64,000 nt of DNA from Halobacillus halophilus DSM 2266 (lineage in GTDB: Bacteria; Bacillota; Bacilli; Bacillales; Halobacillaceae): the NCBI RefSeq assembly GCF_000284515.1, contig NC_017668.1, positions 868,001-932,000 on the forward strand, given 5' to 3'. The notes under the pieces were generated by a model. That model saw only the letters and a list, made by a program, of their open reading frames with translations. It searched no databases and was not told where the DNA came from. Each line of letters starts with the position of its first letter. Positions within the stretch are counted from its first letter, which is position 1. Positions 1,936 through 59,757 of the stretch are shown one piece after another. Position numbers and translations under genes: made by a program.

Positions 1936-2474
1936 AAGCTCCCGTTTATTTAAGACTCAGTTTCGAGATAAATGGGTGCGTTACGATAGATGGATAAGGG
2001 TTGGTGGGGAAATAACTCGCTTTCCTGTGGGGGAACTGGTGAGCCTCCTCAGTCGTTTCACTCCTTGTGGGGTCTCACCTAGATCCTTCTCCCACGGGAG
2101 TCTCGCCATTTCCCCACCAACCTAACTATAATACTGCGAACGGACCTTCTAGAACAGAAAGGTTCTCCTTCATCTTTAAGAAATGCTTTTGTGACAGACT
2201 ATTGCGGGTCTTTACATCCTGAGAATAGGTAGAAAACCACATGGTCTAAGGCCTCATCAAGCAGGTGATGTTTAATGTGGTTTCGAGATTCTGATTTAGT
2301 AAGGTCCGGAGGGGGACGATGAAGACTCCTGTGGGATAAACATGATCGGTGAGACCCCGGAAAGCGAAGCTTGAGGAGGCTCAGCACATGCCCACGGAAA
2401 GCGAAATCGTCCCCCGCAGGACCTTCACGGCAAACCAATATCTCGAAACTGAGTCTTCAACTAAACGGCCCTTT
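1936..2474 (+). repeat. Composite inverted repeat element R1
   Basis: Founding copy of a six-member intergenic family in this window. Terminal inverted repeats of about 35 bp (left with AAGACTCAGTTTCGAGATA at 1952-1970, right with TATCTCGAAACTGAGTCTTC from 2438) enclose two hairpin modules. Module A (1999-2122) closes with a perfect 15-bp stem, GGTTGGTGGGGAAAT / ATTTCCCCACCAACC, with further pairing inside. Module B (2303-2423) is its homologue in reverse orientation, closed by GGTCC / GGACC. A spacer of about 180 nt between them contains AACCACAT / ATGTGGTT. The outer ends differ: AAGCTCCCG (alpha) on the left and CGGCCC (beta) on the right. No plausible coding capacity. It sits between pdaA and a glycosylase gene. 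Confidence 0.85.
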
Positions 2475-2706
2475 AGTGCAATATTCTACTTCCGGAAAAT
2501 TCAACAATAACGGTTAAAAGATTCTTTTATTAAAGGATCTGTTTGATATCCACGTTATTTTTTTAGTTAAAATCCCCATTGTGTGAGACTTTATTTCGAA
2601 AAGACTTTAGCATGTAATATTAAATTTAGATTAGGCATTAATGGAGTAGGGAAAAGGTAAGGAAACACATTATAATGGATCACTTGGAGCGAAGGAGGTT
2701 ACAGGG

Positions 2707-3573
2707 GTGTGGGAAGAAATACTTACAGCAAATAGTTATTATGATTTCGATTATACATTGCAGCGATGGTCATATGACCCTTTAACGAAGTTGGATCAAG
2801 AGGAGCGGTGGGTAGATGTTCCTGTGAAGCTAACCAACGGTTCTCATGTAGTCCGAGTCCAGGCCCATGGCACCACTGCTCGTCCATCTTTTAGTATTTC
2901 CAGTGAAGATGAAGATGCCATAGAAGCTTTGATTCAGCATGTGCAATACTTATTCCAATGGGATCGTAATCTTGAGAACGTCCAGAGCCATTTTCTTAAC
3001 ACCAACCTTGCAGATTTGTTTTCAGCTTATCCAGGTACACCTATCGTCAAGGACTTTCATTTGTACGATTGCTTAGTTAAAGTCATTATACATCAGCAGT
3101 TAAATATGAAATTTGCTCATACGTTAAGTACTCGGTTTGTCGAACGGCTGGGATACCAAAAGGACGGCGTCTGGTTTTATCCTGAACCTGAAACCGTTGC
3201 TGAGGTCCCTTATGAAGAGCTGAGAAAGCTTCAGTTCAGCCAGAGGAAGGCTGAATATGTGATCGATGCCTCCCGTAAAATAGTTGAAGGTGAGTTGGAT
3301 CTGGAGTGGTTAGCCCGTCAGGCAGACGAAGAGGTAATGAAGCATCTTGTAAAAATTAGAGGTATTGGTCCCTGGACAGCTGAAAATTGGCTGATGTTCG
3401 GAGTGGGAAGGGAAAATCTGCTGCCTAAAGCAGATATCGGTATACAAAATGCGCTAAAATCCTATTTTAATTTGGAAGATAAGCCTTCCAAAGAACAGAT
3501 GGAATCGTTCAGTGAAAGCTGGCCTCCTTATCAAAGCTACGCTTCCCTGACTTTATGGAGAAGTATTGAATAA
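2707..3573 (+). CDS. DNA-3-methyladenine glycosylase (AlkA/YfjP-like)
   Basis: Base-excision repair glycosylase that would cleave the N-glycosidic bond of alkylated purines. The 288-residue protein has a helix-hairpin-helix GPD core: IRGIGPWTAENWLMFGVG around residues 218-236, followed by PKADIGIQNAL, which contains the expected catalytic Asp. The N-terminal 100 residues fit the AlkA-N type fold. The start is GTG 2707, supported by GAAGGAGG about 9 bases upstream. B. subtilis has a similar protein, YfjP, encoded close to pdaA, so the neighbourhood is conserved apart from the inserted repeat R1. The exact lesion specificity is not known. Confidence 0.82.
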   Translation: MWEEILTANSYYDFDYTLQRWSYDPLTKLDQEERWVDVPVKLTNGSHVVRVQAHGTTARPSFSISSEDEDAIEALIQHVQYLFQWDRNLENVQSHFLNTNLADLFSAYPGTPIVKDFHLYDCLVKVIIHQQLNMKFAHTLSTRFVERLGYQKDGVWFYPEPETVAEVPYEELRKLQFSQRKAEYVIDASRKIVEGELDLEWLARQADEEVMKHLVKIRGIGPWTAENWLMFGVGRENLLPKADIGIQNALKSYFNLEDKPSKEQMESFSESWPPYQSYASLTLWRSIE

Positions 3574-3667
3574 TAAACAAAGTAGAATAAAGTCATAATA
3601 TCCATTTTAATTAAATAAAATGTAAAGATAATAAAACCTAAATTTTAAGAATAATTGTTTGAAAATA

Positions 3668-3696
3668 TTCAAAATTTTCCCTTGATGCGTTATAAT
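3668..3696 (+). promoter_or_regulatory. Probable sigma-A promoter of the sensor kinase
   Basis: TTCAAA (3668-3673), a 17-bp spacer and a perfect TATAAT (3691-3696) lie about 50 bases upstream of the kinase start in an AT-rich intergenic stretch. Confidence 0.5.
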
Positions 3697-3749
3697 AATA
3701 CACGTATTGGAAAATCTTGAACGGTAAAGGAAAAGAGGTCTTAATATTG

Positions 3750-5621
3750 GTGATAAGAGAAAGGTATTCTGACCAAGTCCATAGTAATGAAATTCTGGAT
3801 GTCCTTAGTATGAATGGCACACCTGGCTGTTTACTGGATTTGCGTCTTCAGAAGGTTATACTAAATCCTGAGATGCAAAGGACACTTGAACTGGAAGATG
3901 TTGAGTTATCATTCACCAAATGGCTTCAATCCTTCCCTTCATCCAGTCAAAATACTTTGCAACGTGTTTTACACCAGTTATTAACAGAAGGACTACGTGA
4001 CATCTCCCTGCAGGTGAACAACGGGAACACCTTTCGACCATGGGATTGTAAAATGGTTCATCTTACTAACGGTCAGATTGCGTTTTCTTTACGGGAGAAA
4101 GTGAGAAATGAGAGACTTCATCCTGAAGATTCTGTACAAGTGACCAAGGAAGAGGAACAATTGTCCGCTGGTAAATCCTTTAAAGGCACATTAGCTGAAA
4201 AACCGAAAAAACAGAGCATTCGTTATTCAACTTCTAAGAGTTCGCAGTTGAAACATCGAATGACCCATCTGGTAGACAAGTTTCCTCACGGGTTAGCCAT
4301 TATCAGCCATAACTGGGAGATTACCTACGCGAATCAGAAGATGGAACAAATCACTGGCATTACTTTTGAACAAAATTGTAATCGTAAGTTATGGGATGTT
4401 TATCCTATCAATGAATATTATAATTTTTTTCAATATTATTTAAGGGCCATGGAAACTCAGGAGACGTGTGAATTCGAAGGTTTCATTCAAAAGACTAATA
4501 CGGTCGTACTGATGACGGTTCACCCTACGGAACTTGGAATAACGGTATTTGCCCAGGACATCACTCAATATAAAAAGCAGCTTCAAGCTTTAAAGGATTC
4601 AGAGGAACGGTTTGCATTGCTTGCTAACAATATTAAAGATGTCTTTTGGATTAGTGACCCTCAGTTTAATGAAGTCCATTATATCAGTCCTTCTTTCCAA
4701 AATTTATTTGGAATCTCCCGCCGCGAAGCCTTTAATAACCCGTCCATTATCCTACGTGTGGTTAATGCTGCAGATCATTCAAAAGTCGAAGAGTCTATGA
4801 AGCTAATGAGAACAAAGAAAGATCAAGTAGAGTATCGGGTGAAAAACAGTAATGGGGAAGAGAGATGGATACGGACAAGAGGTTTTCCGGTAGAAAATAA
4901 TGGAACCGATTACGTGATAGGAATTCATGAAGATGTAACTGAATTTAAAGAAATGGAGCAGTTGAAAGAAAAATCCCAGCAGCTTTCTACTATTACTCAA
5001 ATGTCGGCTGGAATTGCCCATGAGATTAAAAACCCTTTGACGGCAATAAAAGGATTCCTGCAAATTGGAGCGGCTAATCCAGAATTAAGGGATAATTATC
5101 AAGATATTATTCTGGATGAAGTGAACCGGATCGAAGCAATTGTACAGGATTTCATGATGTTGTCCAAACCAAAATCATCTATCCAATTAGAACAAGTAGC
5201 TCCAGAGCATATTGTTTCTTACGTCATTCGTTTACTGGAACAGGAAGCGAAGGATAAAGGTGTGAAGCTTGTATTTCAACATAAAGGCTTAGAAGATGAA
5301 ATCGATACAGAACCGAAGCGTCTGAACCAGATCCTCATCAACCTAATTAAAAATGCAATTGATGTGATGGATGGCGGGGAAGTGGTGATTGACGCGGAAA
5401 TGTCGAGTCAGGAACTAACGATTTCCGTTAGTGATGAGGGTCCTGGATTGACTTCTCAAGAACTGGCTAAAATCGGTGAGCCCTTCTTCACTACCAAAGA
5501 AAAAGGAACAGGACTAGGAGTAATGGTTACGAAAAAAATCGTATCTGATCTTAATGGCACGATGTCATATGAAAGTAAAAAGGGAGAAGGAACGACGGTA
5601 ACTGTTCGATTGCCAAAATAG
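3750..5621 (+). CDS. PAS-domain sensor histidine kinase (sporulation-kinase-like)
   Basis: Soluble two-component kinase, 623 residues, with no clear membrane segment. Order of parts: an unassigned N-terminal region (1-165), a PAS domain (about 171-280), a second PAS/PAC domain (about 281-405), HisKA with H-box SAGIAHEIKNPLTAIKG (phosphoacceptor His near 424), then HATPase_c with N-box NLIKNAID, DEGPGL and TTKEKGTGLG. The layout resembles the Bacillus KinA/KinE sporulation kinases, which feed Spo0F (family knowledge). No response regulator gene is adjacent, consistent with an orphan phosphorelay kinase. GTG 3750 is preferred because AGAGGT lies 10 bases upstream; TTG 3717 and TTG 3747 are in-frame alternatives. 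Confidence 0.82.
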   Translation: MIRERYSDQVHSNEILDVLSMNGTPGCLLDLRLQKVILNPEMQRTLELEDVELSFTKWLQSFPSSSQNTLQRVLHQLLTEGLRDISLQVNNGNTFRPWDCKMVHLTNGQIAFSLREKVRNERLHPEDSVQVTKEEEQLSAGKSFKGTLAEKPKKQSIRYSTSKSSQLKHRMTHLVDKFPHGLAIISHNWEITYANQKMEQITGITFEQNCNRKLWDVYPINEYYNFFQYYLRAMETQETCEFEGFIQKTNTVVLMTVHPTELGITVFAQDITQYKKQLQALKDSEERFALLANNIKDVFWISDPQFNEVHYISPSFQNLFGISRREAFNNPSIILRVVNAADHSKVEESMKLMRTKKDQVEYRVKNSNGEERWIRTRGFPVENNGTDYVIGIHEDVTEFKEMEQLKEKSQQLSTITQMSAGIAHEIKNPLTAIKGFLQIGAANPELRDNYQDIILDEVNRIEAIVQDFMMLSKPKSSIQLEQVAPEHIVSYVIRLLEQEAKDKGVKLVFQHKGLEDEIDTEPKRLNQILINLIKNAIDVMDGGEVVIDAEMSSQELTISVSDEGPGLTSQELAKIGEPFFTTKEKGTGLGVMVTKKIVSDLNGTMSYESKKGEGTTVTVRLPK

Positions 5622-5650
5622 AATAGTCATGAAAACAATCAACCTCTTTT

Positions 5651-5684
5651 AAACCACTGCATATTTATGCGGTGGTTTATTTTA
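5651..5684 (+). terminator. Intrinsic terminator of the sensor kinase
   Basis: AAACCACTGCAT / ATGCGGTGGTTT stem (one G-T wobble) followed by ATTTTAT. Confidence 0.8.
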
Positions 5685-5860
5685 TGGCTGTCTTTTTCCT
5701 TCTTATTTATATCGGACTGAAACTCTTAATTGTAAAATAAAATTTAGGGAATTTGACTTAGATATAAAGAGTGAAAGGCAGGATTGGAAAAGTAAAAATT
5801 GTGAATTTTTCAGCTTCAATCGCTTACATAAAATAAAATACTTTTTTACAATCATAGCTG

Positions 5861-5889
5861 TTTACAAACGCATAAAAGGGCTCTATAAT
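5861..5889 (+). promoter_or_regulatory. Sigma-A promoter of the YitT-family gene
   Basis: TTTACA (5861-5866), a 17-bp spacer and TATAAT (5884-5889) lie 64 bases before the start codon. Between the kinase terminator and this promoter (5685-5860) I see only AT-rich sequence with no gene. Confidence 0.65.
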
Positions 5890-5953
5890 CCCGATTGTAC
5901 TATTCATTCGTTCGACAATATTTTTCAATATTTTCAATAAAGGAGGCTTACTG

Positions 5954-6802
5954 ATGCTTAAAAAAATATGGTCCTTTCTAATGATGAATATAGGTGCTTT
6001 ATGCGTAGCGGTTAATGTTCACTTTTTCCTTTCCCCAAACGATCTAGCGACAGGGGGAGTCAGTGGTTTATCAATCGTATTGAATAAAGTCATCCCTGAT
6101 CTATCATTAGGAATGATAATGATCTGCTTAAATATCGTTCTGTTTATTGTTGGTTTTATATTCTTAGGTTTTCAATTTGGAGCGAAAACCATCTATGCTA
6201 GTTTTGCTCTATCTTTCATGGTTTGGGGACTGGAAACCTATGTTCCAATGCAGGAAGCGTTGAGCAATGACTTACTGATTCAACTAATTATTGGTCAAAT
6301 TATTGCGGCATCTGGAATGGCCATTGTTTTTCATCAAGGAGCCTCTACAGGCGGAACAGATATCATTGCGATGATTCTTAATAAATACTTTTCTATTGAA
6401 GTAGGCAAAGGCGTGCTTTTCTCTGACATAGCAATTGCCGCGTCTTCCATCTTTATATTTGGTCCAACAGTCGGTATGTATGCTTTCTTCGGAGTTATTC
6501 TGAATGGCCTAGTGATTGATTATGCGCTACAGCAATTTGATAACAATAAAGAAATTGTTATTATCAGCCGGGAAAGTGATCTTGTGCGTAATTTCATCGT
6601 TCAGCAGCTGGGGCGCGGGGCAACGATTCACTATGCAAAAGGTGCATTTAATCAGGAAGACAAAGAAGTCATTACGACCATCTTAAACCGAAAAGATTAT
6701 ACTCGCTTGAAAAAGTTTATGTCATCTGTAGATGAGCGAGCATTTATTACGGTCCATTCCATGAACGAAATACTAGGAGAAAACTTCAAACGTCTCGCTT
6801 AA
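5954..6802 (+). CDS. YitT family membrane protein (DUF161/DUF2179)
   Basis: Polytopic membrane protein of unknown function, 282 residues. The first about 190 residues hold six hydrophobic segments with the family signature LSPNDLATGGVSGLS near residues 27-41 and HQGASTGGTDIIA near 126-138. The last about 85 residues form the soluble DUF2179 domain (VIISRESDLVRNFIVQQLGRG, then a YTRLKKFM-type end). The start is ATG 5954, preceded by AAAGGAGG. Bacillus genomes carry several paralogues (YitT, YpjC, YqfU, YvjA, YxkD). Which one this is cannot be decided without an alignment. It is transcribed alone, from its own promoter to its own terminator. Confidence 0.85.
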   Translation: MLKKIWSFLMMNIGALCVAVNVHFFLSPNDLATGGVSGLSIVLNKVIPDLSLGMIMICLNIVLFIVGFIFLGFQFGAKTIYASFALSFMVWGLETYVPMQEALSNDLLIQLIIGQIIAASGMAIVFHQGASTGGTDIIAMILNKYFSIEVGKGVLFSDIAIAASSIFIFGPTVGMYAFFGVILNGLVIDYALQQFDNNKEIVIISRESDLVRNFIVQQLGRGATIHYAKGAFNQEDKEVITTILNRKDYTRLKKFMSSVDERAFITVHSMNEILGENFKRLA

Positions 6803-6817
6803 TTGAATAAGAACATG

Positions 6818-9406: not shown

Positions 9407-9408
9407 AT

Positions 9409-11480: not shown

Positions 11481-11534
11481 AATATCTCTCCTAATTTTTA
11501 TGGCTTTGTTAAACTTCATTTTTGATTTAAAGGT

Positions 11535-12074
11535 AAAGCTCCCGTTTGCTTAAGACTCAGTTTCGAGATAACTTGGGTCCTTTGCCAAAAAGGGGAGGGC
11601 GGCTACAGAAACAACTAGCTTTCCTGCGGGGGAACTGGCAAGCCTCCTCAGTCGTTAACACTCCTTGTGGGGTCTCGCCTCGCTCCTTCTCCCGCGGGAG
11701 TCTCGTCGTTTCCTCCCCACCCCGGCCATTTCATGTGAACGGACTCTCCCAGTAGAAAAAAGTGGGAACCTTAAATCGGCTTAAATGCTTCTATAGAGGC
11801 GTTTATACCCTGAAGAGACTCGGTACTCAGCGTTGATCATATAGGTTATTCTTCCTCATATGAAGGCATTTACGTAAAGGATTTCGAGCTCTCCATGATC
11901 GCAAAGGGCGGAAGGGAACGGCGAAGACTCCTGCGGGATGAACATGATCGGTGAGATCCCCGCAGGGCTGTTAAGCCCGAGGAAGCTCACCACATGCCCG
12001 CGGAAAGCGAGCCGTTCCCTGGAGCCACTTCTCCACCCAATATCTCGGAATCGAGTCTTCAACTAAACGGCCCG
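11535..12074 (+). repeat. Composite inverted repeat element R2
   Basis: Second copy, same configuration as R1: alpha end AAAGCTCCCG, TIR to 11570, module A (about 11594-11725), spacer, module B (about 11908-12035), right TIR from 12041, beta end CGGCCC. It lacks the 60-nt insert block. The tip of the module A stem reads CCTGCGGG / CCCGCGGG where R1 has CCTGTGGG / CCCACGGG, a compensatory change. Its spacer is nearly the same as that of R5 (for example GAAGGCATTTACGTAAAGGA), so R2 and R5 are the closest pair. Confidence 0.85.
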
Positions 12075-12129
12075 ATTGGGTAATAAAGATCTTATGAAAA
12101 ATCACAAATAAACTCTACCAGAGCCATTT

Positions 12130-13497
12130 TTAGAGAAGCATCCATCCGAGCAGACTTCCTGCAGTTCCAAACCATATAGCAAAACCAATATTCCATTTCG
12201 TTATGCGGTAAGGATTCCTGCCTGTTAACTGGCTCATGATGGTGACGGTCGTATTAAATGTACCCGCAGCGTCACTCGCGAGGGTGGATGTTAACAGTAC
12301 AATAGCGAGACTTAAAGGATTTAATTCGGTCAGTAACGGCTGGATTAAGGTTCCCATCAGGCTAATAGTTACTAAGGGATGGATGCCGATTAATGAGAAG
12401 AGCAGGGAAACCAGCTGGATAGCTATGAACAACAGTAAAGGCAAGGAAGATAATTGCAATAAGGGCGTTTGAATCATATTAATCATTGTAGTCTGTTCAA
12501 ACATTTCACTGAAAAAACCAAGTGATATAAACAAAAGCATTAGATTCTGTAAGCCGTTGACCTGGGGAACCCAGGTTTTTTTGTTATAGCTTATAAATTC
12601 TTTCAGTTGTTTTATCGTAAGCGCCCATAACAGAGTGAAAGGCAAAATCAATAGGATAACGGCATTAAAATAAGTAATACTTAATAGCTTCTGTACCCCA
12701 AAGGCGAGAAAAATAAATAAAAACAGCATGCCGAGTAAGTAGCTGACTTTCCCCATTAATTGACTGCCGGATGTCTCTGAAGACGTTTCCGGTGCTTCAT
12801 AAATCTTTTGTCTGTAGGTGAACCATCCAATGCACCAGTCGATAAGCAATAGTGAAATAGAAAAAAATAGAGCCCACGGCAGCAATTCAAAGTAAGCTAC
12901 TCCTGTAATCGTAACCGTCAGGGCGATAAAAATTTCTATAGGACTCCATACGTTGGCTAGTGCAAAGGAGCGGAGGATGGATTGGCTGGAAAATGGATCA
13001 AGACGTGATTTGCTGAGTTTCTGTGCTGAATCTTTAACCACTCCCTGCACAATAGTAATAGCCGAAAAAAAGACAAAAAGACAGAGAATGTAAGCAATTA
13101 AAGAGCTTCGGTAATACAGCTGCCCTAGATGTTTTGTTCTTAGCTGCAGCAGATTCTGCAGTTCTTCGTCATATTTGCCCACCACCATAAGATTGTTAAT
13201 AAAGGGTAGGAAATATAAAAGACTAAGAAGCAAAGCCGTAGAAGTAAAATGTAAGGGGAGAGTCAGCCAGTTTTCGCCGGAGAAGCTAAAGATCAGGATT
13301 CCGGCAAAAACAAATATAGTAGAAATGATTTGAAACGTACGGCTCGCTCCTTTAAAGGAAACCGGAATAATAACCAGTGCGGTGCAGCCTAATAAATAGG
13401 TTAAGTAATAATTATCCATAAAAAGAGATATTAGGTAAAGAAGGATAAAGCTAGTATACAAGGAGGATTTTAAAATTTTTTTATATGTATGCTCCAT
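12130..13497 (-). CDS. Putative permease, possibly ion transporter superfamily
   Basis: 455-residue polytopic membrane protein with roughly eleven hydrophobic segments and a cytoplasmic loop around residues 225-250 (KIYEAPETSSETSG). The C-terminal half, with LASDAAGTFNTTVTIMSQLTGRNP and a glycine-rich last helix, recalls the re-entrant loops of the ion transporter (DcuC/CitM/gluconate) superfamily, but I cannot assign a family. The start is ATG 13497 with GGGGAG 7 bases upstream. Transcribed alone and divergent from the BCCT carrier. The substrate is unknown. Confidence 0.6.
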   Translation of the reverse strand: MEHTYKKILKSSLYTSFILLYLISLFMDNYYLTYLLGCTALVIIPVSFKGASRTFQIISTIFVFAGILIFSFSGENWLTLPLHFTSTALLLSLLYFLPFINNLMVVGKYDEELQNLLQLRTKHLGQLYYRSSLIAYILCLFVFFSAITIVQGVVKDSAQKLSKSRLDPFSSQSILRSFALANVWSPIEIFIALTVTITGVAYFELLPWALFFSISLLLIDWCIGWFTYRQKIYEAPETSSETSGSQLMGKVSYLLGMLFLFIFLAFGVQKLLSITYFNAVILLILPFTLLWALTIKQLKEFISYNKKTWVPQVNGLQNLMLLFISLGFFSEMFEQTTMINMIQTPLLQLSSLPLLLFIAIQLVSLLFSLIGIHPLVTISLMGTLIQPLLTELNPLSLAIVLLTSTLASDAAGTFNTTVTIMSQLTGRNPYRITKWNIGFAIWFGTAGSLLGWMLL

Positions 13498-15697: not shown

Positions 15698-15714
15698 AGA
15701 TAGTTCCATTACTT

Positions 15715-15755
15715 CCCACCTCAGGTCATCCAAATATTGGATGACCTGAGGTGGG
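15715..15755. repeat. Twin hairpin, copy 1
   Basis: A perfect 19-bp palindromic stem (arms 15715-15733 and 15737-15755, core CCACCTCAGGTCATCCA) with a 3-nt loop. It lacks a U run on the minus strand and is only AT-rich on the plus strand. The same arm sequence recurs at 16505-16543, on the other side of the intervening gene. Confidence 0.85.
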
Positions 15756-15770
15756 ATATTTTGTATGGCT

Positions 15771-16472: not shown

Positions 16473-16504
16473 TTATCATTCTCCTAACATTATCCCAGTT
16501 TTAC

Positions 16505-16543
16505 CCACCTCAGGTCATCCATATTATGGATGACCTGAGGTGG
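16505..16543. repeat. Twin hairpin, copy 2
   Basis: A perfect 18-bp stem (arms 16505-16522 and 16526-16543) with a 3-nt loop; the first 17 bases of the arm are identical to copy 1. It lies between the start of the DUF5694-like gene and the end of the LLM oxidoreductase gene. Confidence 0.85.
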
Positions 16544-16558
16544 AAGGTTTTAACATGA

Positions 16559-17889: not shown

Positions 17890-19698
17890 ATGAGTGAACA
17901 ACAAGAGAAAGTGGGAGTGAGGGCAAGAGTCCAGAAGTTCGGCAGCTTTTTAAGTAGTATGATTATGCCTAATATTGCTGCTTTTATTGCCTGGGGAATT
18001 ATCACCGCTTTATTTATCCCGGATGGCTACTATCCTAATGAAGATTTAGCAGCAATGGTAGGACCAATGATCACTTATCTATTGCCATTATTAATTGCTT
18101 TTACCGGTGGACGGTTGATTCATGGGTTGCGAGGAGGAGTTGTCGCCGCCACGGCTGCCATGGGTGTAATTGTCGGCTCACCGGACACACCAATGTTCCT
18201 TGGCGCCATGGTTGCTGGTCCGATTGCTGGTTATGCCATGAAAAAAGTGGACGAATTCTTTGAAGGAAAAGTTCGACAAGGTTTTGAAATGCTCGTTAAT
18301 AACTTTTCAGCAGGAATATTAGGAGCGGTACTAGCCGTACTTGCTTACTTTACGTTAAGTCCGCTCTTTTCAGGGATCACCGAACTTCTTGGTGTAGGAG
18401 TAGATTTCCTAATCTCAGCTGGTTTATTACCATTAGCCAACTTATTCATTGAACCTGCCAAAGTGGTATTTCTGAACAACGCTATTAACCATGGAATTTT
18501 AACGCCGCTTGGTACAGAACAATCTCTAGAAACAGGAAAGTCGATTCTATTCTTACTTGAAGCGAACCCTGGTCCTGGTCTAGGCGTATTGCTCGCCTTT
18601 ATGTTCTTTGGAAAAGGAGTCTCTAAACAAACAGCACCAGGTGCAGCAATCATTCAATTCTTTGGCGGAATCCATGAGATTTATTTCCCTTATATTTTAT
18701 CCAAGCCACTCGTCATATTAGGCGCGATTGCTGGTGGTATTTCAGGTACAGCTACTTTTGCTTTCTTCAATGCTGGACTGACCGCCGCAGCTTCACCAGG
18801 AAGTATCATAGCTATTATGGGTATGACACCAAGAGGTAATTATCTTGGAGTTGCTGCTGGTGTAGCTGTAGCTGCTGTTGTTTCATTTATCGTATCCTCG
18901 ATTATTTTGAAAGCAAGCAAAGATGAAGACGAGGGAGATATTGAAGAAGCGACCTCTAAGATGGAAGGTATGAAAGGGAAGAAAAGCAGTGTATCTGGTC
19001 AGCTCTCAGGTAAACAGTCTGCAGAAACGACAGAAGCTTCTCCTGAAGACGGTCATACAGCTGAGGTTCCTAAGCTTGATTATTCCAAAGTAGATAAAAT
19101 CATTTTCGCCTGCGATGCCGGAATGGGATCAAGTGCCATGGGGTCATCCTTATTGAAGAATAAGTTTAAAAAAGCGGACCTTGATATTGAAGTAACGAAT
19201 ATGGCCATTAACGACCTGCCGCAGGATGTAGATGTTGTCATTACTCATAAAGATTTAACGGAGCGTGCGAAACAGAAAGTTCCAAATGCTCACCATATTT
19301 CCGTGGATAACTTCCTGAACAGTCCAAAATACGATGAGCTTGTGGAAGAACTGCAAAACAAATCTACTACTAAGGAAGAAGAAACGGGCGGCACAGCAGA
19401 AGTACCTGATGTAGATGCTTCTAAAGTGGACAAAATCATTTTTGCCTGCGATGCCGGCATGGGATCCAGCGCTATGGGCGCATCCCTCTTGAAAAACAAA
19501 TTCAAGAAAGCAGGAATCGATATTAATGTGACGAACATGGCCATTAATGACCTGCCGCAGGATGTGGATATCGTTATTACTCATAAAGACTTAACAGAGC
19601 GAGCGAAGCAAAAAGTTCCAGGTGCCCATCATGTGTCTGTCGATAATTTCTTGAACAGTCCGAAGTATGATGAGTTAGTAGAAGAGCTGCAGAAATAA
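17890..19698 (+). CDS. mtlA: PTS mannitol transporter EIICB with two tandem IIB domains
   Basis: Membrane permease and phosphotransferase that imports mannitol as mannitol-1-phosphate. 602 residues; typical Firmicute EIICB proteins are about 470. Order: EIIC membrane domain (about 1-345, with PNIAAFIAWGIITALFIP, GIHEIYFPYIL and LTAAASPGS), a charged linker (346-395), IIB-1 (about 399-489, phosphorylated Cys 408 in FACDAGMGSSAMG), a second linker and IIB-2 (about 511-601, Cys 520 in the same motif). The two IIB copies are identical at 84 of 91 residues, linker motif AEVP included. AAGGAGG lies 7 bases before ATG 17890. First gene of mtlA-mtlR-mtlF-mtlD. Confidence 0.93.
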   Translation: MSEQQEKVGVRARVQKFGSFLSSMIMPNIAAFIAWGIITALFIPDGYYPNEDLAAMVGPMITYLLPLLIAFTGGRLIHGLRGGVVAATAAMGVIVGSPDTPMFLGAMVAGPIAGYAMKKVDEFFEGKVRQGFEMLVNNFSAGILGAVLAVLAYFTLSPLFSGITELLGVGVDFLISAGLLPLANLFIEPAKVVFLNNAINHGILTPLGTEQSLETGKSILFLLEANPGPGLGVLLAFMFFGKGVSKQTAPGAAIIQFFGGIHEIYFPYILSKPLVILGAIAGGISGTATFAFFNAGLTAAASPGSIIAIMGMTPRGNYLGVAAGVAVAAVVSFIVSSIILKASKDEDEGDIEEATSKMEGMKGKKSSVSGQLSGKQSAETTEASPEDGHTAEVPKLDYSKVDKIIFACDAGMGSSAMGSSLLKNKFKKADLDIEVTNMAINDLPQDVDVVITHKDLTERAKQKVPNAHHISVDNFLNSPKYDELVEELQNKSTTKEEETGGTAEVPDVDASKVDKIIFACDAGMGSSAMGASLLKNKFKKAGIDINVTNMAINDLPQDVDIVITHKDLTERAKQKVPGAHHVSVDNFLNSPKYDELVEELQK

Positions 19699-26345: not shown

Positions 26346-26827
26346 AAAAGCTCCCGATACTGGAATACTCAGTTTCGAGATAGTTGGGGCCCGTTGCAAA
26401 TAATAGATGAGGGCGGCTACGGAAACAACTCGCTTTCCTGCGGCCCTACAAGACGTAGGGTCGATCGACGTTGCCACAGGACGTGGCGACTTTAGTCAAT
26501 CCTCCTTTTACCAGAAGCCTCCTCAGTCGTTAACACTCCTTGTGGGGTCTCGCCTAGCTCCTTCTCCCGCGGGAGTCTCGTCGTTTCCTCCGCCACCCCA
26601 ACGATATCTAGTGAACGAACCCTGCTATAGGAGACAGGAGCCATACTGCATCTGCCTCAAATGCTTTATAACAGGGTTCCTACACGTAATCAAACATTAA
26701 AACTCAGGGTGGTTATAGATTATCCTTGTTCATTGGAAGGTGTTTATTCAGAGAATTTCGAGCCGTTCCCTGGAGCCCCTTTCTCCACACAATATCTCGA
26801 AACTGAGTCTTACAGTATCCGGCCCTA
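26346..26827 (+). repeat. Composite inverted repeat element R3 (module B deleted)
   Basis: Alpha end AAAAGCTCCCG and TIR to 26382; right TIR from 26793; beta end GGCCC. Module A (about 26409-26605) carries the 60-nt double-hairpin insert at 26442-26500. Module B is almost missing: TTTCGAG (26757-26763) runs straight into CCGTTCCCTGGAG, the far end of module B as seen in R2 and R5. The TIR tips read CCCGATACTG / CAGTATCCGG, whereas R1 and R2 read CCCGTTTA / TAAACGG. The downstream end lies about 65 bases from the SRPBCC gene. Confidence 0.82.
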
Positions 26828-26894
26828 TTGTGGAAGAAATTGCTTATTAAAATTAACAACAATGTTGAACATATATGTTAAAGGAGGGAATGGA

Positions 26895-36682: not shown

Positions 36683-37231
36683 AAAAGCTCCTTTTTCTAT
36701 AAGACTCAGTTTCGATATATTGTTTGATGAGGAAGTTCCTCCAGGGGACGATTTTCGCTCTCCGGCCCTGCACGACGCAGGGTCGTTCGACGTTCTTACA
36801 TGACGTGACATTCTTAGTCGAACCTCTTCTGTGGTGAGTTTCCTCGGGCTTTAAAATTGCTGCAGAATCTCACCGATCATGTTCATCCCAAAGGAGTCTC
36901 CCCGTTTTCCCAACCCCTATACGTTAAGAAGAGGCTTGAAATGATATACATGGTGTAGAGCTTTTGAACGTGGAAATCTTGATTAACAGCTATATTTTAC
37001 GATGATCCATATGATCATAGCTTCCGTTTTCCTAAGATAATTTCGAGCCTTTTATATCGCAAGGGTCGTGGGGGAAGGGGGAGACTCCCGTGGGAGAAGG
37101 GAGTAGGCGAGATCCCACAGGGCGCAGCCCGAGGAAGCTTGCCGGTTCCCCCACAGGAAAGCGAGTCCTTCCCCAACGACCCTAAATACCTACAAACATC
37201 TCGAAATCGAGTCTTCCACTATCCGACCCTA
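36683..37231 (-). repeat. Composite inverted repeat element R4 (interior inverted)
   Basis: The alpha end AAAAGCTCC is on the left and the beta end (CCGACCC) on the right, as in R1. The interior, however, is reversed: module B, with the 60-nt insert at 36764-36823, comes first and module A (about 37065-37187, GGTCGT / ACGACC closure) comes last. Left TIR ends near 36720; right TIR starts near 37194. It separates the convergent lipocalin-like and acyl-CoA dehydrogenase genes. Two short stretches are more diverged than in R2 and R5, so this is an older or separate subfamily copy. Confidence 0.82.
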
Positions 37232-45656: not shown

Positions 45657-46260
45657 AAAGCTCCCGATACTGGAAGACTCAGTTTCGAGATAGTTGGGCC
45701 CGTTACTAAGATGGGGATGAGGGTTGGTTGGGAAATAATTCGCTTTCCTGCGGGGGAACTAGCAAGCCTCCTCGGTCGTTTCACTCCCTGTGGGGTCTCG
45801 CCTCGCTCCTTCTCCCGCGGGAGTCTCACCATTTCCCCACCAACCCAACTATAATTTTGCGAACGGAACCTGCCAGTAGAAAAAAGTGGGAACCTTACAT
45901 CGTCTTAAATGCTTCTATAGCGGCGTTTATATCTTGTACAGACTCGGTGCTTAGCGTGGATCGCACAGGTTATTCTTCGTCATATGAAGGCATTTACGTA
46001 AAGGATTTCGAGCTCTACATGATCGTAAAGGTGCGGAAGGGAACGGCGAAGACTCCTGCGGGATGAACATGACAGGTGAGGCCCCGGAAGGCGCCAGCCT
46101 GAGGAGACTCAGCGCAAGGGATGTTCGACTAAGATCGCCACGTCCTGTGGCAACGTCGAACGACCCTGCGTCGTGCAGGGCCGCGAAAAGCGAGCCGTTC
46201 CCTGGAGCGCCTCTCTCCACACAATATCTCGAAGCTGAGTTTTCCACAATCCGGCGCTTT
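45657..46260 (+). repeat. Composite inverted repeat element R5
   Basis: Complete copy with alpha end AAAGCTCCCG left and beta end right. Module A (about 45720-45847) has a GCGGG / CCCGC stem. The spacer is almost the same as in R2. Module B (about 46031-46205) contains the 60-nt insert at 46123-46182. The right TIR is diverged (GAAGCTGAGTTTTCC). It lies between the lysine operon terminator and the YjiH gene. From 46261 to the gene at 46509 I see only AT-rich promoter-like sequence. Confidence 0.85.
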
Positions 46261-54126: not shown

Positions 54127-54136
54127 GTTTTGTTAC

Positions 54137-54719: not shown

Positions 54720-54726
54720 AAAAAAA

Positions 54727-54970
54727 GGAGCAGACACCTGTTCCGCCAACAAACATCCTTTCAATAAGAGGAGAATGATTTATGAGTGTGGTTGTTCTTA
54801 ACTAATCCGAAATTGGATAGAGTCCTGATGAAGCAATGGGAAAAAGGCGTGCATCTGACACGTCTTGTTTGTAAACCCATTTTTCAGGAACAGTTAAGAA
54901 CAAGCATAAGCGTAGCACGTTGAGGATATAAACGAAGCTATGACTGGCTTATTCAGTCATAGCTTTTTTA
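54727..54970 (+). ncRNA. Orphan short transcript with tiny ORFs
   Basis: Predicted RNA of about 245 nt between a consensus promoter and a strong terminator. An AAGAGGAGA site leads to ATG 54782, encoding only MSVVVLN before a stop. A 12-bp perfect inverted repeat (TTGTTCTTAACT 54792-54803, AGTTAAGAACAA 54892-54903) encloses 88 nt, and the tiny ORF ends in its 5' arm. A second frame from GTG 54786 runs 44 codons to TGA 54929 (within it: MKQWEKGVHLTRLVCKPIF) but is poorly placed relative to the Shine-Dalgarno. It could be a regulatory RNA, a leader whose gene was lost, or a small-protein gene. Confidence 0.5.
54935..54970 (+). terminator. Strong terminator of the orphan transcript
   Basis: A perfect 12-bp stem AAGCTATGACTG / CAGTCATAGCTT followed by TTTTTA. 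Confidence 0.88.
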
Positions 54971-55025
54971 TATTCTCTGTTGGCGGAATAGGAGCCTTCA
55001 CTTATTAGTGAGGTCTGTTCTAATC

Positions 55026-55064
55026 AAGCCACGGCAAGCGTATCTGCTTGCCGTGGCTTTTTTT
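55026..55064 (+). terminator. Second strong terminator
   Basis: A perfect 14-bp stem AAGCCACGGCAAGC / GCTTGCCGTGGCTT followed by TTTTTTATTT, only 55 bases after the previous terminator and with no gene between them. The rest of 55065-55185 shows only upstream sequence for the MutS2-like gene. Confidence 0.85.
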
Positions 55065-55185
55065 ATTTATTGGCAGAGAAAGAGTGCAGGGCAAACGGTT
55101 CGATTTTCCAGCCCCCTTTTGTCACCCAAAAATCTGCCCTTTAGTCCATTATAGAAAATTGAACCCTTAAGAGGAGGAGTCACCC

Positions 55186-57102
55186 ATGAACGAACGCACG
55201 TACAAGACTTTAGAATTTTTTGAGATATTGAAAATAGTGAGCCAACTTGCTTTTACAAAGCCCGGAAAAGAATCAATTGAATCCTTACGGCCAGTACGTA
55301 ATATAAAAGCCATGAACCGCTGGCATGAAGAGGTGAAAGAGGCCGTAGCTATTTTAAACACAAGTGGAAACATCCCCATCCATACATTGGAGGATGTAAC
55401 GGATATGCTTGAACAAGGAAAAAAGGGGATGTTCATTCGCGCAAACCAATTTTCAGCATTGCTTTCATTTTTGGATCATTGTACAAAGTTGAAGCGTTTT
55501 ATGCAGGATAAAGAGATTATTGCTCCGATAATCAGTCTATATGCTTCCTCTATTTCTGACTTAAGCAGGCTGGAGGAGGATATCCATCAGGTGATTCGTC
55601 ACGGACAGGTGGATGATTATGCTTCTAAGAATTTAGCTAAGATCCGCAAGCAGATTCAAACGAAACAAAGCCGATTGAAGGAAAGGACAGAGGCTCAGGC
55701 AAAAAAATATAAAACGATCATGCAGGAACCAAGACCCGTCGAGAAAGATGGACGATGGACTCTCCCGATTAAAAGAGAAAACCGGAACAAAATTAAAGGA
55801 GGCATTGTCGATCAATCTGCTTCAGGAGCTACCCTTTTTGTTGAACCAGAAGAGCTCGCCAATCTTCAGGAAGAGTTGCAGTTACTGCGCATGAATGAAG
55901 AACATGAAGTGGAACAGATTCTTTATACAATGACAGCAGAAGTGCTGGACCACGAGTCAGAGTTAAATCTTGCAATGGAAACCATGCATGAATATGATGT
56001 TATTTTTGCCAAAGGGAAATACAGCCGCATGATCAACGGGACAGCACCGGAATTCTCCGAAGACTTTACGCTTCGTATCAGCATGGCGAGACACCCAATG
56101 CTTGGTGAAAAGGCCGTTCCATTAAGTATCCAAATGAATTCAGAAGACCAGGCTTTACTCATTACGGGACCTAATACAGGAGGGAAAACGGTAACACTGA
56201 AGACGGTGGGACTGCTCTGTCTCATGGCTCAGTCCGGTCTTCCGATTCCGGCAGAAAAAGGCAGTGTACTACCTGTTTTTCAGCAGATATTTGTGGATAT
56301 TGGAGATGGGCAGAGCATTGAAGAGAACTTAAGTACTTTTAGTTCAAGACTTGTTAACTTAATTGATATTTTGAGAGAGGCTAATGATCATTCGATGCTT
56401 TTACTAGATGAAATTGGATCAGGGACAGATCCTGGAGAAGGGATGGGGCTTGCAACAGCCATACTCGATAAGCTCTCGGAAAAGGGGGCCACCATCCTTG
56501 CGACCACCCATTATAGTGAAATGAAGGAGTACGCCCGGCATAAGCCAGGATTTATGAATGGGGCAATGGAATTCGACCTTGAAACGCTTAAGCCAACCTA
56601 CCGGCTGCTTCTTGGAACCTCGGGGAGAAGTCAGGCTTTTGATATTGCTCATAAATTAGGTCTTCATCCGGAGATTTTAAACCAGGCGTACTCGATCACT
56701 TATAAGCAGGAGGGAGATTTTCAGGTTAGTGATCAGAAGTTAAAGGAAACAGAATATAAACGCCAGGCAGCCGTAAATCGTTACAGAAGAGGGAAAACTC
56801 CCCGGGTGTCTGCGACCGAAAAACCGCATTTTCAAATGGGGGATAATGTAATTATTCAGGCTACAGGAGAAACCGCCATTGTATATAAAGGTCCAGATCA
56901 AACAGGCAACTATGTGGTGCAGGTGAAAGGAGAGAAGTTCACCTACAATCACAAACGCCTTAAGCTCCACATTCGTGCTGAAGATTTATATCCTGAGGAT
57001 TATGACTTCGATATTATCTTCAAGTCTAAAGAATACCGGAAAGTTCGAAAGCAGCTGGATCGGAAACATGTGGAGGGTCTGATCCTGGAGGAAGAAGATT
57101 GA
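55186..57102 (+). CDS. MutS2-like ATPase lacking the Smr domain
   Basis: 638 residues. N-terminal core (YKTLEFFEILKIVSQLAFTKPGK) and clamp-like coiled region (about 130-260, rich in Lys/Arg/Glu), then the ABC-type ATPase with Walker A LLITGPNTGGKTVTLKT (about 324-340), SIEENLSTFSSRL signature, Walker B MLLLDEIGSGTDPGEG and TTHYSEMKEYA. The C-terminal 100 residues look SH3/KOW-like (MGDNVIIQATGETAIVYKGP). The Smr nuclease domain and the LDLRG motif of full MutS2 (about 785 residues) are absent. It is thus a paralogue rather than the standard mutS2. GAGGAGG precedes ATG 55186. Confidence 0.85.
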   Translation: MNERTYKTLEFFEILKIVSQLAFTKPGKESIESLRPVRNIKAMNRWHEEVKEAVAILNTSGNIPIHTLEDVTDMLEQGKKGMFIRANQFSALLSFLDHCTKLKRFMQDKEIIAPIISLYASSISDLSRLEEDIHQVIRHGQVDDYASKNLAKIRKQIQTKQSRLKERTEAQAKKYKTIMQEPRPVEKDGRWTLPIKRENRNKIKGGIVDQSASGATLFVEPEELANLQEELQLLRMNEEHEVEQILYTMTAEVLDHESELNLAMETMHEYDVIFAKGKYSRMINGTAPEFSEDFTLRISMARHPMLGEKAVPLSIQMNSEDQALLITGPNTGGKTVTLKTVGLLCLMAQSGLPIPAEKGSVLPVFQQIFVDIGDGQSIEENLSTFSSRLVNLIDILREANDHSMLLLDEIGSGTDPGEGMGLATAILDKLSEKGATILATTHYSEMKEYARHKPGFMNGAMEFDLETLKPTYRLLLGTSGRSQAFDIAHKLGLHPEILNQAYSITYKQEGDFQVSDQKLKETEYKRQAAVNRYRRGKTPRVSATEKPHFQMGDNVIIQATGETAIVYKGPDQTGNYVVQVKGEKFTYNHKRLKLHIRAEDLYPEDYDFDIIFKSKEYRKVRKQLDRKHVEGLILEEED

Positions 57103-57180
57103 GGCCTGCATATTCCTAGAAGGTAATCGAGTTCCCATGCTATGATGAAGGTAAATAAAGCTATAAAGGTGGGCATCAAG

Positions 57181-57864
57181 ATGAAGCGGAAAAAATGGTT
57201 GATTATAGCCGGCGTGCTCGTGATCATTGGGATTTTTGCGATTCCAGAAGCTTATGCCTATTTGACGAAAAGAAATTATGAAAGTGAAGCTATAACGCAG
57301 GAGCAGGTTCCAGAAGGCTATCAGGTTGCTACCTTTGCAGGGGGCTGTTTCTGGTGCATGGAACCGCCTTTTGAAAAATTGAAAGGCATTCAGGAGGTTG
57401 TCTCAGGTTACACGGGTGGCGATACCAAAAACCCTTCTTATAAAGAGGTTTCCTCCGGTGGAACCGGCCATGTGGAAGCCGTACAGGTCTACTATGACCC
57501 GGAAGTGATTTCGTACGAACAGCTCTTACAAGTATTTTGGCGTCAGATTAATCCGACCGATGATGAAGGGCAATTCGTTGATCGCGGGTTTCAATACACG
57601 ACAGGGATCTTTTATCATAATGAAGAACAGAAACAAGCAGCCATGGAATCCAAACAGCAGCAGGCGGAATCCGGTCGTTTCGAAAGTGAAATTGTGACCC
57701 CTGTGCAGCAGGCTGAAGAATTTTACCGGGCTGAAGAATATCACCAGGATTATTATAAGAAAAATAAGGTTCGATATGATTTTTACCGTGGTAACTCTGG
57801 CCGTGATGATTATCTGGAGGATACATGGGGAAGCGATAGGGAACTAGATTTACCGAAGAAATGA
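57181..57864 (+). CDS. msrA: Membrane-anchored peptide-methionine (S)-S-oxide reductase
   Basis: Repairs methionine S-sulfoxide in proteins. 227 residues: an N-terminal membrane helix (about 5-24, WLIIAGVLVIIGIFAI) and then the MsrA domain with the catalytic motif FAGGCFWCMEPPFE (about 51-64; Cys 55 nucleophile), GYTGGDTKNPSY, GHVEAVQVYYDP and NPTDDEGQFVDRG. The helix would place it outside the membrane, unlike most cytoplasmic MsrA. ATG 57181 has AAAGGTGGG 7 bases upstream; an ATG at 57142 is less likely. A hairpin without a good U tract follows at 57869-57895. Confidence 0.9.
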   Translation: MKRKKWLIIAGVLVIIGIFAIPEAYAYLTKRNYESEAITQEQVPEGYQVATFAGGCFWCMEPPFEKLKGIQEVVSGYTGGDTKNPSYKEVSSGGTGHVEAVQVYYDPEVISYEQLLQVFWRQINPTDDEGQFVDRGFQYTTGIFYHNEEQKQAAMESKQQQAESGRFESEIVTPVQQAEEFYRAEEYHQDYYKKNKVRYDFYRGNSGRDDYLEDTWGSDRELDLPKK

Positions 57865-58032
57865 TAAGAACTCCCCTTGCAGGTCAAGGGGAGTTATAAA
57901 ATACAAACCGAAATCCTTTATCTATGAGCTTCTTCCAAATTTCGACAAGTTTATTCATACAATTAGAAGGGAACGAGAGTATATATACGTACTTATCACC
58001 ATTTTTTCAAAATTACAGAGGGGATGAATTAG

Positions 58033-58239
58033 GTGAACAACTACAAATTGGATCGCTTTGAAGGGGCTTATGCCATTCTGATTCAAGAGGATGCTCATAA
58101 TAATGAAATATCTGTATTAAAGGAGCGTTTAATTGCGTTCGCCAAACCCGGAGATTTTATTAAGATCGATTTTGACAATATTGGGAACTTAAAGCACGTG
58201 GAAATTATATCTAAAGTAGATAAAATGGAAAAGGCATAA
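58033..58239 (+). CDS. DUF3006-like small protein
   Basis: 68 residues: YKLDRFEGAYAILIQEDAHN at the N-terminus, then LKERLIAFAKPGDFIKIDFDNIGNLKHVEI. The DRFEG-Y-A start followed by a GD-containing strand is the pattern I associate with DUF3006. GTG 58033 has AGGGGATG upstream. Function unknown; own terminator. Confidence 0.65.
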   Translation: MNNYKLDRFEGAYAILIQEDAHNNEISVLKERLIAFAKPGDFIKIDFDNIGNLKHVEIISKVDKMEKA

Positions 58240-58249
58240 GCCGTTGTAG

Positions 58250-58279
58250 AAACCAGGGACATTCCCTGGTTTATTTTTT
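58250..58279 (+). terminator. Intrinsic terminator
   Basis: A perfect 10-bp stem AAACCAGGGA / TCCCTGGTTT with a 3-nt loop, then ATTTTTTC. Confidence 0.88.
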
Positions 58280-58362
58280 CTGAAAATTAAGTCGAATGTT
58301 CTTGATTTTCTCCTTAATACCTTCATAATAAAAGTAAGATACACACCGAGGGGGAAATGAAG

Positions 58363-59103
58363 GTGCTCTTGCGAAATGCTATGGATCTTTTAGATGAAGG
58401 TGTATTGATTCTAAACAAAGAATTCAAAGTGACGTACGTTAATCCTGCCTATGTTCAAATGTTTCAATTAGAAGAAGAAAGGGTTGTCGGAGAGCACATT
58501 CACGATATTTATCCCAATTTACCTCAGTCCAAACGTGTGATTACCCATACGATTGAAAGAGAAAAAGATATCACAGTAGAGTCTATGGAATTTCATTGGC
58601 GCGGGAAAGAGATGATGCTCCAATTTAAGACGAAGCGTTTTATCCATGAGGGCGAATGGTACGTGTTAAGCCGTATTATAGATATTACAGAACAATTCCA
58701 GACAGAAAAGCATCTCATACATATGATTGAGGAGATGACGGCGAATGTGGTCACAATCGCCAAGGGCTATGCGCTGTTACCTTTGCAGCCGATTTTAAGA
58801 GAAGAGCAGCGTTTGATTCTGCTGGAAAAAGTCCCTGTACAATGCCAGGAACAAAACGTAACCCGCCTGGTAATCCAGTTTTCCGGCATCTCAGAAATTG
58901 ACCAGGAATGGACGGTGCTGCTTAGAGATTTAATGCATAGCTTGAAATTACTGGGAATTGAAGTGGTTCTGGCAGGGATGCGTCCTAAAGTGGTTAGACA
59001 GTTCACAGAAAATAACATTATGCTGAATGATGTTCGCACCTTTATGAACATAAGCCAGGCGACTAAATATTTTTTAGAAACCGGTTTAAAAGCAAACTTT
59101 TAA
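58363..59103 (+). CDS. PAS-STAS protein (RsbR-like stressosome candidate)
   Basis: 246 residues: an N-terminal PAS domain (about 1-110; MDLLDEGVLILNKEFKVTYVNPAY, IIDITEQFQTEK) and a C-terminal STAS domain (about 125-235). STAS features: GYALLPLQPILREEQRLILLEK and the LKLLGIEVVLAGMRPKVVRQF segment typical of RsbR/RsbS paralogues. The region where RsbR proteins carry phosphorylatable Thr/Ser reads VIQFSGISEIDQEW, so a Ser is available. Probable input to sigma-B or another signalling route; no rsb genes nearby. GTG 58363 (GAGGGGG 9 bases upstream) is slightly preferred to ATG 58357. Confidence 0.75.
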   Translation: MLLRNAMDLLDEGVLILNKEFKVTYVNPAYVQMFQLEEERVVGEHIHDIYPNLPQSKRVITHTIEREKDITVESMEFHWRGKEMMLQFKTKRFIHEGEWYVLSRIIDITEQFQTEKHLIHMIEEMTANVVTIAKGYALLPLQPILREEQRLILLEKVPVQCQEQNVTRLVIQFSGISEIDQEWTVLLRDLMHSLKLLGIEVVLAGMRPKVVRQFTENNIMLNDVRTFMNISQATKYFLETGLKANF

Positions 59104-59159
59104 TGTGATACTACGTTAAAAGTTTTTATTGATTTTAAAAACCGGCTTATTACACAATA

Positions 59160-59757
59160 GGTCGGATTGTGGAAGACTCAGTTTCGAGATAATTCTGGTC
59201 CATTACGATATTTGGAGAAGGGCTGGTGGGGAAATAGCTCGCTTTCCTATGGGGGAACGGTAAGCTTCCTCGCTCGTTGTCACTCCCTGCGGGATCTTAC
59301 CTAGTTCCTTCTCCCATGGGAGTCTCGCCATTTCCCCACCAACCCAGCCGAGTGAGAATAACGGACGCTTTTATAGGAGAAATTGAACTGTTTCTTATCG
59401 ATCCTAAATGCTTTTATGACAGGCTATTTCACATCGTTAGAGCATAAAAATAGCGTCATGAGTACATGCTTATTTCTCATCAACTCATCGACGTTTTAAA
59501 TGGTTTCGAGTTTCTTATTCGACCAGGTCCGGAGGGGGACGATGTAGACTCCTGGGGATGAACATGATCGGTGAGATCCCGCAGGGCTGTTAAGCCCGAG
59601 GAAGCTCAGCACAAGGGATGTTCGACTAAGATCGCCACGTCCTGTGGCAACGTCGAACGACCCTGCATCGTGCAGGGCCGGAAAGCGAAATCGTCCCCCG
59701 GAGGACCTTCCGCTCCTCCAATGTCTCGAAACTGAGTCTTTAAGTAAGGGGAGCTTT
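59160..59757 (-). repeat. Composite inverted repeat element R6 (interior inverted relative to ends)
   Basis: The beta end (GGTCGGATTGTGG) is on the left and the alpha end (GGGGAGCTTTCC) on the right, while module A (about 59220-59351) is still left and module B (about 59529-59708) right. Its end/interior configuration therefore equals that of R4, not that of R1-R3 and R5. Module B has the 60-nt insert at 59620-59679. Module A tip is CCTATGGG / CCCATGGG and inner stem GGTAAG / CTTACC, both compensated relative to R1. It lies between convergent genes. Confidence 0.85.

Follow-up and report, generated by a model that had tools for sequence, protein, structure and literature searches.

Intergenic repeats of Halobacillus halophilus are very probably old, non-autonomous copies of an IS1595-family transposon

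All six repeats under study, designated R1 to R6, were present in the window, the whole stretch of 64 kb of Halobacillus halophilus DNA that was analysed. Judging from sequence comparison, they are very probably old copies of a non-autonomous, MITE-like transposon of the IS1595 family with a length of ~620 bp, since their ends and 8-bp target duplications are common to IS1595 transposons with an intact transposase. MITEs derived from insertion sequences are a well-known kind of element, and the Bacillaceae-1 piece within the repeats is already in Rfam. With this assignment, a repeat that is highly abundant in Halobacillus and related bacteria would gain an identity, true ends, a candidate enzyme, and a transposon family, and an Rfam-listed sRNA family would, in this genome, be a block within a mobile element.

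The stretches between the inner 19-mers (half-palindromes), located by 19-mer pairing, were 1952–2457 in R1, 11552–12059 in R2, 26364–26811 in R3, 36701–37215 in R4, 45674–46243 in R5, and 59173–59740 in R6. With up to 3 mismatches, the 19-mer yielded 210 + 220 matches in the own 4.17-Mb Halobacillus genome compared to 1 + 0 for the reversed-pattern control, which excludes chance as the source of the family. Its size was thus roughly 200 copies, and the "hundreds per genome" of the initial annotation was right in order of magnitude. In 464 kb of own-genome sequence, 34 facing 19-mer pairs less than 1000 bp apart were found, 16 of them spanning 495–515 bp, and the elements made up 4.4% of this sequence. 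None of the 34 pairs lay inside a gene according to the ORF calls made in this analysis, and all six window copies were confirmed as intergenic and provided with inverted repeats. The interiors of R1 to R6 contained neither a transposase nor an ORF of transposase size, as had been claimed. The description of an interspersed, high-copy, ORF-less family with paired GC-rich hairpins, common to other Bacillaceae, was also correct.

The initial annotation had placed the terminus of the element at AAGACTCAGTTTCGAGATA. This sequence proved to be internal: in the consensus of copies, conservation runs outward past the 19-mer to GGCTCTGTTAAA. The element ends on both sides were GGCTCTGTTAAA-N7-GTTGATTT, lying 50 or about 66 nt outside the 19-mers, and complete copies were about 615–625 bp long. 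With up to 3 mismatches allowed, 49 + 48 outer ends were counted in the own genome, against 0 + 0 for the control. Target duplications were searched for at 45 facing end pairs in 258 sequences. The flanking 8 bp matched at 8/8 positions in 22 pairs and at 7/8 or more in 29, while the shifted control reached 7/8 once in 1125 comparisons and never 8/8. The remaining 16 pairs matched at 6/8 bases or fewer; a few of these were mispairings (e.g., L206 1020–3239). The duplications were 8 bp long and varied in sequence among copies. One S-type and one K-type arm were present in 25/25 elements typed on both sides, so the element is a directional unit.

Within the window, the whole R2 element occupied 624 bp (11502–12125), with ends GGCTTTGTTAAAC.. 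and ..CTACCAGAGCC, and was flanked by the left duplication ATTTTTAT (11494–11501) and the right duplication ATTTTTAG (12126–12133; 7/8 match), the only target duplication retained among R1 to R6. Checking empty sites and duplications, as initially proposed, yielded 8-bp duplications at GGCTCTG ends, and the R2 site was cleanly empty in a relative (G019), with a single ATTTTTAT. This was the only clean empty site in 25 site comparisons; most others differed by partial deletions or insertions, holding remnants of the element or having lost it along with further changes. Outer ends were scored by matches to a 28-position consensus; a score of 19 was attained by 9 of 1000 random stretches of 90 nt. 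Both ends were above chance only in R1 and R2. The whole R1 element was inferred to span 1902–2524, beginning with GGCTTTATTATAC.. (1902) and ending with ..GTTAAAAGATTC (2524) at scores of 19/28 and 21/28, with no duplication left. The right end of R3 was perhaps at 26876 (19/28) and its left end was unrecognisable (13/28); R6 had a left end at 59109 (20/28) and an unrecognisable right end (15/28). Neither end could be recognised in R4 (14/28 and 13/28) or R5 (15/28 and 14/28).

IS1595-family elements (PF12762/NF033547) resemble the repeats in having terminal inverted repeats starting from GG and 8-bp duplications, which are usual among IS1595 members according to the available part of PMC8101967. 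A search of 20 chosen genomes with the PF12762 profile gave matches in four of them. Two loci, L229 (963–2598) and L231 (951–2569), had GGCTCTGTTAAA-type ends, perfect 8-bp duplications, and transposases scoring 212 bits each against the NCBIfam IS1595 model NF033547 (cut-off 75). Two more elements came from Halobacillus sp. A1 (G188): L289 (510–2508; 1999 bp), with the duplication AATTCTTT present twice, and L288 (553–3386; 2834 bp), with TTATATTT present twice. Each of the latter carried a 350-aa transposase and a palindrome, P. The 27-bp end pattern of the repeats was identical in all four loci. Halobacillus sp. A1 also contained short copies (L293 and L294), both with perfect duplications. 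Unlike the IS1595 family, the repeats have two facing GC-rich hairpins in place of a transposase.

No PF12762 match was detected by profile search in the own genome or in four Halobacillus relatives, and the longest transposase piece across 22 genomes of the genus covered at most 82 of 350 residues; mobilisation in trans in Halobacillus halophilus is therefore historical. A decayed copy in the own genome (L272/L292) retained an outer end, P, and two pieces 72–74% like the transposase end of L289. The repeats would have reached their AT-rich intergenic sites through an IS1595 transposase that recognised these ends in trans and generated the 8-bp duplication upon insertion. The transposase gene would since have decayed in the lineage, so that the copies may now only erode.

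Several other partners or carriers were considered. IS6 elements have GG..CTGTT ends and 8-bp duplications; this candidate was set aside because IS1595 with matching ends was found. ISL3 was present in the own genome, but its ends differed from those of the repeats, and no facing pair of the repeat ends surrounded the ISL3 gene at three own loci and one G029 locus. Carriage by phages was rejected: four viral contigs had one outer end each, no second end (up to 4 mismatches) occurred in the retrieved stretches, and no transposase-like ORF was seen by eye. Plasmid carriage was likewise rejected, with 2 of 72,556 plasmid records matching about 100 bp of one module. Loci from other genera were chosen for an exact outer end among the matches listed and do not represent a random sample.

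A close known counterpart was an ISHwa6-related IS1595 MITE of 165 bp in the archaeon Haloquadratum walsbyi, which is described in the accessible portion of PMC3852290. Like the repeats, it is non-autonomous, with inverted repeats of 25 bp and direct repeats of 8 bp. It has seven copies of 165 bp vs. about 200 of ~620 bp, and on that description the palindromic joints and nested blocks set the repeats apart (PMC3852290). In the Bacillus cereus group, bcr1 repeats are, in the excerpt of PMC6542083, likewise short, interspersed, and mobile-like, with tens to more than 100 copies. They are tied there to the motif TTTAT and to a mechanism resembling recombination, whereas our repeats have 8-bp duplications and IS1595 ends (PMC6542083). 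Identity with bcr1 was rejected, since no TTTAT-type end was found and the duplications are 8 bp long and varied. Bhal-1 of Bacillus halodurans, a related species, is likewise a short intergenic stem-loop repeat, with 74 bp, and was compared by its description only, as far as given in the extract of PMC2267715. Among the matches listed in a sequence-word search of papers, only GAGGAGGCTCA was matched, in unrelated work. The initial statement that no description of the paired, TIR-bounded architecture was known held for open-access full text; the kind of element and the Bacillaceae-1 piece are known.

As initially described, two facing hairpin modules were found in five copies, and R3 retained one. 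The module A cores lay on the minus strand (2017–2103 in R1 and 11616–11703 in R2) and the module B cores on the plus strand (2323–2404 and 11925–12010, respectively), all located by the module pattern. This pattern gave 95 matches, 55 of 82–89 nt and 15 of 141–149 nt; one of the 55 (own 84743) was a chance match. When folded as single-stranded DNA, four of six tested module stretches were better than all 200 shuffles of each, as was the 60-bp palindrome; 37068–37183 (z −1.5) and 11595–11724 (z +1.0) did not surpass all of theirs. The GC-rich hairpins contain nested blocks, among them Bacillaceae-1. In the window, the RF01690 covariance model matched four times, at 46–70 bits vs. a gathering threshold of 35: in the single module of R3 (26445–26511, minus strand, 66.8 bits), in R4 (36767–36833, minus strand, 46.3 bits), in module B of R5 (46113–46179, plus strand, 68.5 bits, immediately 5' of GAAAAGCGA), and in module B of R6 (59610–59676, plus strand, 70 bits). 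R1 and R2 gave no match in this search. These were 67-nt full-length matches to the RNA described in the table passage of PMC2864571. The blocks had escaped recognition in the initial annotation. Bacillaceae-1 is here one block nested in a larger mobile element and occurs in other contexts too in other genera, where the same GC-rich hairpin was seen by eye in 2 of the 19 loci viewed out of 30 (L239 and L246).

A structured non-coding RNA gene family, with the Bacillaceae-1 sRNA and its larger relatives kept for their function, would agree with the folding results, with the sRNA gene entry in Rfam, and with the matches to RF01690 that 78 out of 150 genomes from the order gave. We consider it very improbable: all 16 Bacillaceae-1 matches in the 464 kb lay within elements covering 4.4% of it, copies at shared sites differed by 74–918 bp in 23 of 25 comparisons with relatives, and the hairpins are strand-symmetric, so that DNA structure accounts for them equally. 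Selection on the inner 19-mer was not supported either; it was 82.9% identical between orthologous sides vs. 89.7% in flanks and thus diverges more than they do, with no purifying selection seen. The 8-bp duplications and IS1595 ends speak, for the element as a whole, against REP/BIME-like palindromes moved without target duplication by an IS200/IS605-type (RAYT) transposase, a scarcely credible origin despite the paired facing hairpins, the 60-bp palindrome, and the high intergenic copy number. Co-option behind genes, be it to terminate transcription or to act on mRNA stability, also seems improbable. By our ORF calls, 11 of 34 elements lay between convergent genes compared to 50 of 289 gaps, but this excess was weak (Fisher p = 0.06), divergent gaps showed no significant difference (4/34 vs. 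52/289, p = 0.48), and a preference for harmless sites would equally explain the placement.

A stronger competitor, quite conceivable though on balance we doubt it, is that gene conversion or homologous recombination among the copies at old sites was the main process by which the interior spread and became homogenised, with transposition minor and past. Sites are common to 91%-identical relatives, yet the interiors differ, and in one relative, G002, many of the copies listed belong to a separate variant with the ending GATG. The inner 19-mer was perfect on 31 of 66 sides in the own genome and the outer ends on 2 of 66, a difference that decay alone does not predict; between orthologous sides, the 19-mer was identical (19/19) on only 2 of 43. 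However, the 19-mer stands out as an island, the sequence to its left and right being more variable, where a long conversion tract would look otherwise, and conversion leaves the end duplications unexplained.

With less confidence, we take the inner 19-mer pair of the IS1595-type repeats to be the two halves of P, which was 60 bp long in 24 of 25 matches; the halves flank the interior of the composite in swapped order. P may be a joint where interior cassettes swap by recombination, these being the transposase, small membrane-protein genes, or the paired GC-rich hairpins of R1 to R6. Exchange at P would account for a variable interior length and content with a constant arm order. A bolder proposal, which we hold only tentatively and think rather unlikely, is that P is a docking joint at which Halobacillus IS1595 cassettes are swapped by dedicated or host recombination. 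One set of transposon ends would then spread many cargoes (transposase, YesK-like or other small-protein genes, and GC-rich hairpin blocks), the hairpin cassette of R1 to R6 being one, and the transposon design would be simple and modular. In the autonomous Halobacillus element, P lay 29–30 bp 3' of the transposase gene, and in L274, L277, L040, and L124, too, it lay next to a transposase or to what remains of one. Compared by eye, L288 and L289 were 96–97% identical apart from ~830 extra bp between P-like half sites.

The six intergenic repeats R1–R6, which the initial annotation placed at 1936–2474, 11535–12074, 26346–26827, 36683–37231, 45657–46260 and 59160–59757, were confirmed at these positions in the window sequence. 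The family is a non-autonomous element of the IS1595 transposon family. The genome of Halobacillus halophilus DSM 2266 (4,170,008 bases, three contigs) contained 430 matches, at up to 3 mismatches, to the inner conserved inverted repeat (19-mer). Counts across 22 genomes of the genus ranged from 430 down to 1; the lowest are background, since the control gave 0–2 per genome. Among the matches listed for named genomes, the 17-base core of the 19-mer occurred mainly in Halobacillus and Thalassobacillus, with few others. One exact core match on a contig labelled Candidatus Uhrbacteria (L155) is due either to chance or to contamination. When 400 kb of the genome was joined with the window (464 kb), 34 pairs of facing 19-mers less than 1000 bp apart were counted; 16 were 495–515 bp long (full range 277–975 bp).

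Conservation extended beyond the 19-mers into two types of arm, S (containing AAGCTCCCG) and K (containing AGGGCCGG), followed by the outer end, GGCTCTGTTAAA-N7-GTTGATTT. All 25 elements typed at both sides had one S and one K arm. Genome-wide, the outer pattern had 49 + 48 matches, against 0 + 0 for the control, and both-ended elements were mostly 614–626 bp long. In R1 both outer ends were recognised, with 19 and 21 of 28 consensus matches (random stretches attain 19 in 9 of 1000 tries) and without target duplication; R3 and R6 had a single recognisable outer end apiece, and those of R4 and R5 were not recognisable against the 28-position consensus.

Across 258 sequences, 45 facing pairs of outer ends were found. 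The eight flanking bases were identical in 22 of them, and 7–8 matched in 29; shifted controls (n = 1125) gave 7 matches once and 8 never. The duplications were AT-rich. The 16 pairs with six or fewer matching bases included evident mispairings and old copies. Duplications of 8 bp are described as usual for IS1595 members in PMC8101967. R2 is flanked by ATTTTTAT / ATTTTTAG, and the empty site that the initial annotation proposed to look for was found in the relative G019, where the matching flanks enclose just one copy of ATTTTTAT.

The exact outer end was present in 21 of 81 genomes of the order. Examples selected for having this end were elements of 150–570 bp, many of them with perfect 8-bp duplications and GC-rich hairpin interiors. 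IS1595 transposase was detected in 4 of 20 selected genomes. At loci L229 and L231 the transposase gene was enclosed by outer ends of this kind with perfect duplications, and the proteins were assigned to IS1595 by NCBIfam; L230 had an inward outer end at just one of its sides, and L232 contained an internal stop. In Halobacillus sp. A1 (found via L081), the elements L289 (1999 bp) and L288 (2834 bp) are intact: both encode a 350-aa transposase along with a small YesK-like protein and lie in perfect duplications. The same genome holds the short copies L293 and L294, whose duplications are likewise perfect. Across the 22-genome genus set, the transposase was detected only as pieces, in 11 genomes, none exceeding 82 of 350 residues. 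One such piece in H. halophilus sits between a decayed outer end before it and a 60-bp palindrome after it. Halobacillus sp. A1 also had small membrane or lipoprotein genes within IS1595-type ends or close to them, at L288:997-1212, L289:843-1121 and, in a putative element, L291:1153-4062; they were YesK-like or, by Pfam, DUF3221 and DUF4181, with DUF4190 below cut-off. Four viral contigs (L199:3884, L200:6530, L201:533, L202:601) each had one exact match to the outer end; it adjoins phage or cargo genes and follows a T/A-rich stretch.

The palindrome (P) is the 19-mer in inside-out order, TATCTCGAAACTGAGTCTT-N22-AAGACTCAGTTTCGAGATA, 60 bp long in 24 of 25 matches, and its consensus folds into a near-perfect hairpin (z −12.5). 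P lies 29–30 bp behind the transposase gene in L288 and L289, and by eye its halves stand in swapped order around the interior of composite elements. L288 and L289 were 96–97% identical except for ~830 bp extra in L288, flanked, by eye, by P-like half sites. We read P as a joint between cassettes, at which these may be exchanged. In most of 29 P loci compared with L289, transposase and outer ends were both absent nearby; therefore, P also occurs alone. Lone P was observed in intergenic DNA at many loci (L066:6034, L082:3446, L114:455, L080:93 and the 1496300 region of H. halophilus, L292:733), in most of them with neither transposase nor outer ends close by.

Module cores had discrete lengths: 82–89 nt in 55 of 95 pattern matches and 141–149 nt in 15, where a block of the Rfam sRNA family Bacillaceae-1 (RF01690) precedes the GAAAGCGA end. 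Ten matches carried a further ~205-nt block, two of them with another block within. Three-deep nesting (hairpin module, ~205-nt block, ~130-nt block) was observed at coordinates 9518 and 338995 in H. halophilus. All 16 Bacillaceae-1 matches in the 464 kb fell inside the 34 elements. The family was found in 78 of 150 genomes of the order, and also in other surroundings, as judged by eye from 19 of 30 loci; thus, Bacillaceae-1 is a separate repeat that nests in these elements. The literature records it as a candidate RNA (PMC2864571), among abundant sRNAs (PMC9029176) and with eight structures in B. subtilis (PMC8208703).

None of the 34 elements lay within genes by our ORF calls; 19 occupied tandem, 11 convergent and 4 divergent gaps, compared with 187, 50 and 52 of all gaps (convergent excess, p = 0.06).

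Site comparisons with relatives G001 and G019 differed by 74–918 bp in 23 of 25 cases, with flanks ~90% identical. At 33 loci detected from modules alone, at least one of them (84743) a chance match, a perfect 19-mer was present at 31 of 66 sides and a perfect outer 12-mer at 2 of 66. Orthologous 19-mers, leaving out five sides that could not be aligned, were 82.9% identical vs. 89.7% for flanks, 71–77% for inner neighbours and 77% immediately outside; the 19-mer is thus kept better than its neighbours, not better than flanking DNA. Conversion among the copies, a recent expansion or weak constraint could each account for its uniformity within the genome.

The composite, palindrome-jointed build of this non-autonomous IS1595 element is new. 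Searches of open-access full texts listed no description of the element. An archaeal IS1595 MITE is on record in PMC3852290, and the terms IS1595 and Bacillus are absent from the main text of a MITE review (PMC10969869). Two other repeats were observed in the window: a separate palindromic repeat, CCACCTCAGGTCATCCA..TGGATGACCTGAGGTGG, in two copies (15706–15762 and 16495–16551), and a 300-nt direct repeat (19057–19356 and 19393–19692; 79% identity) within one 610-aa ORF.
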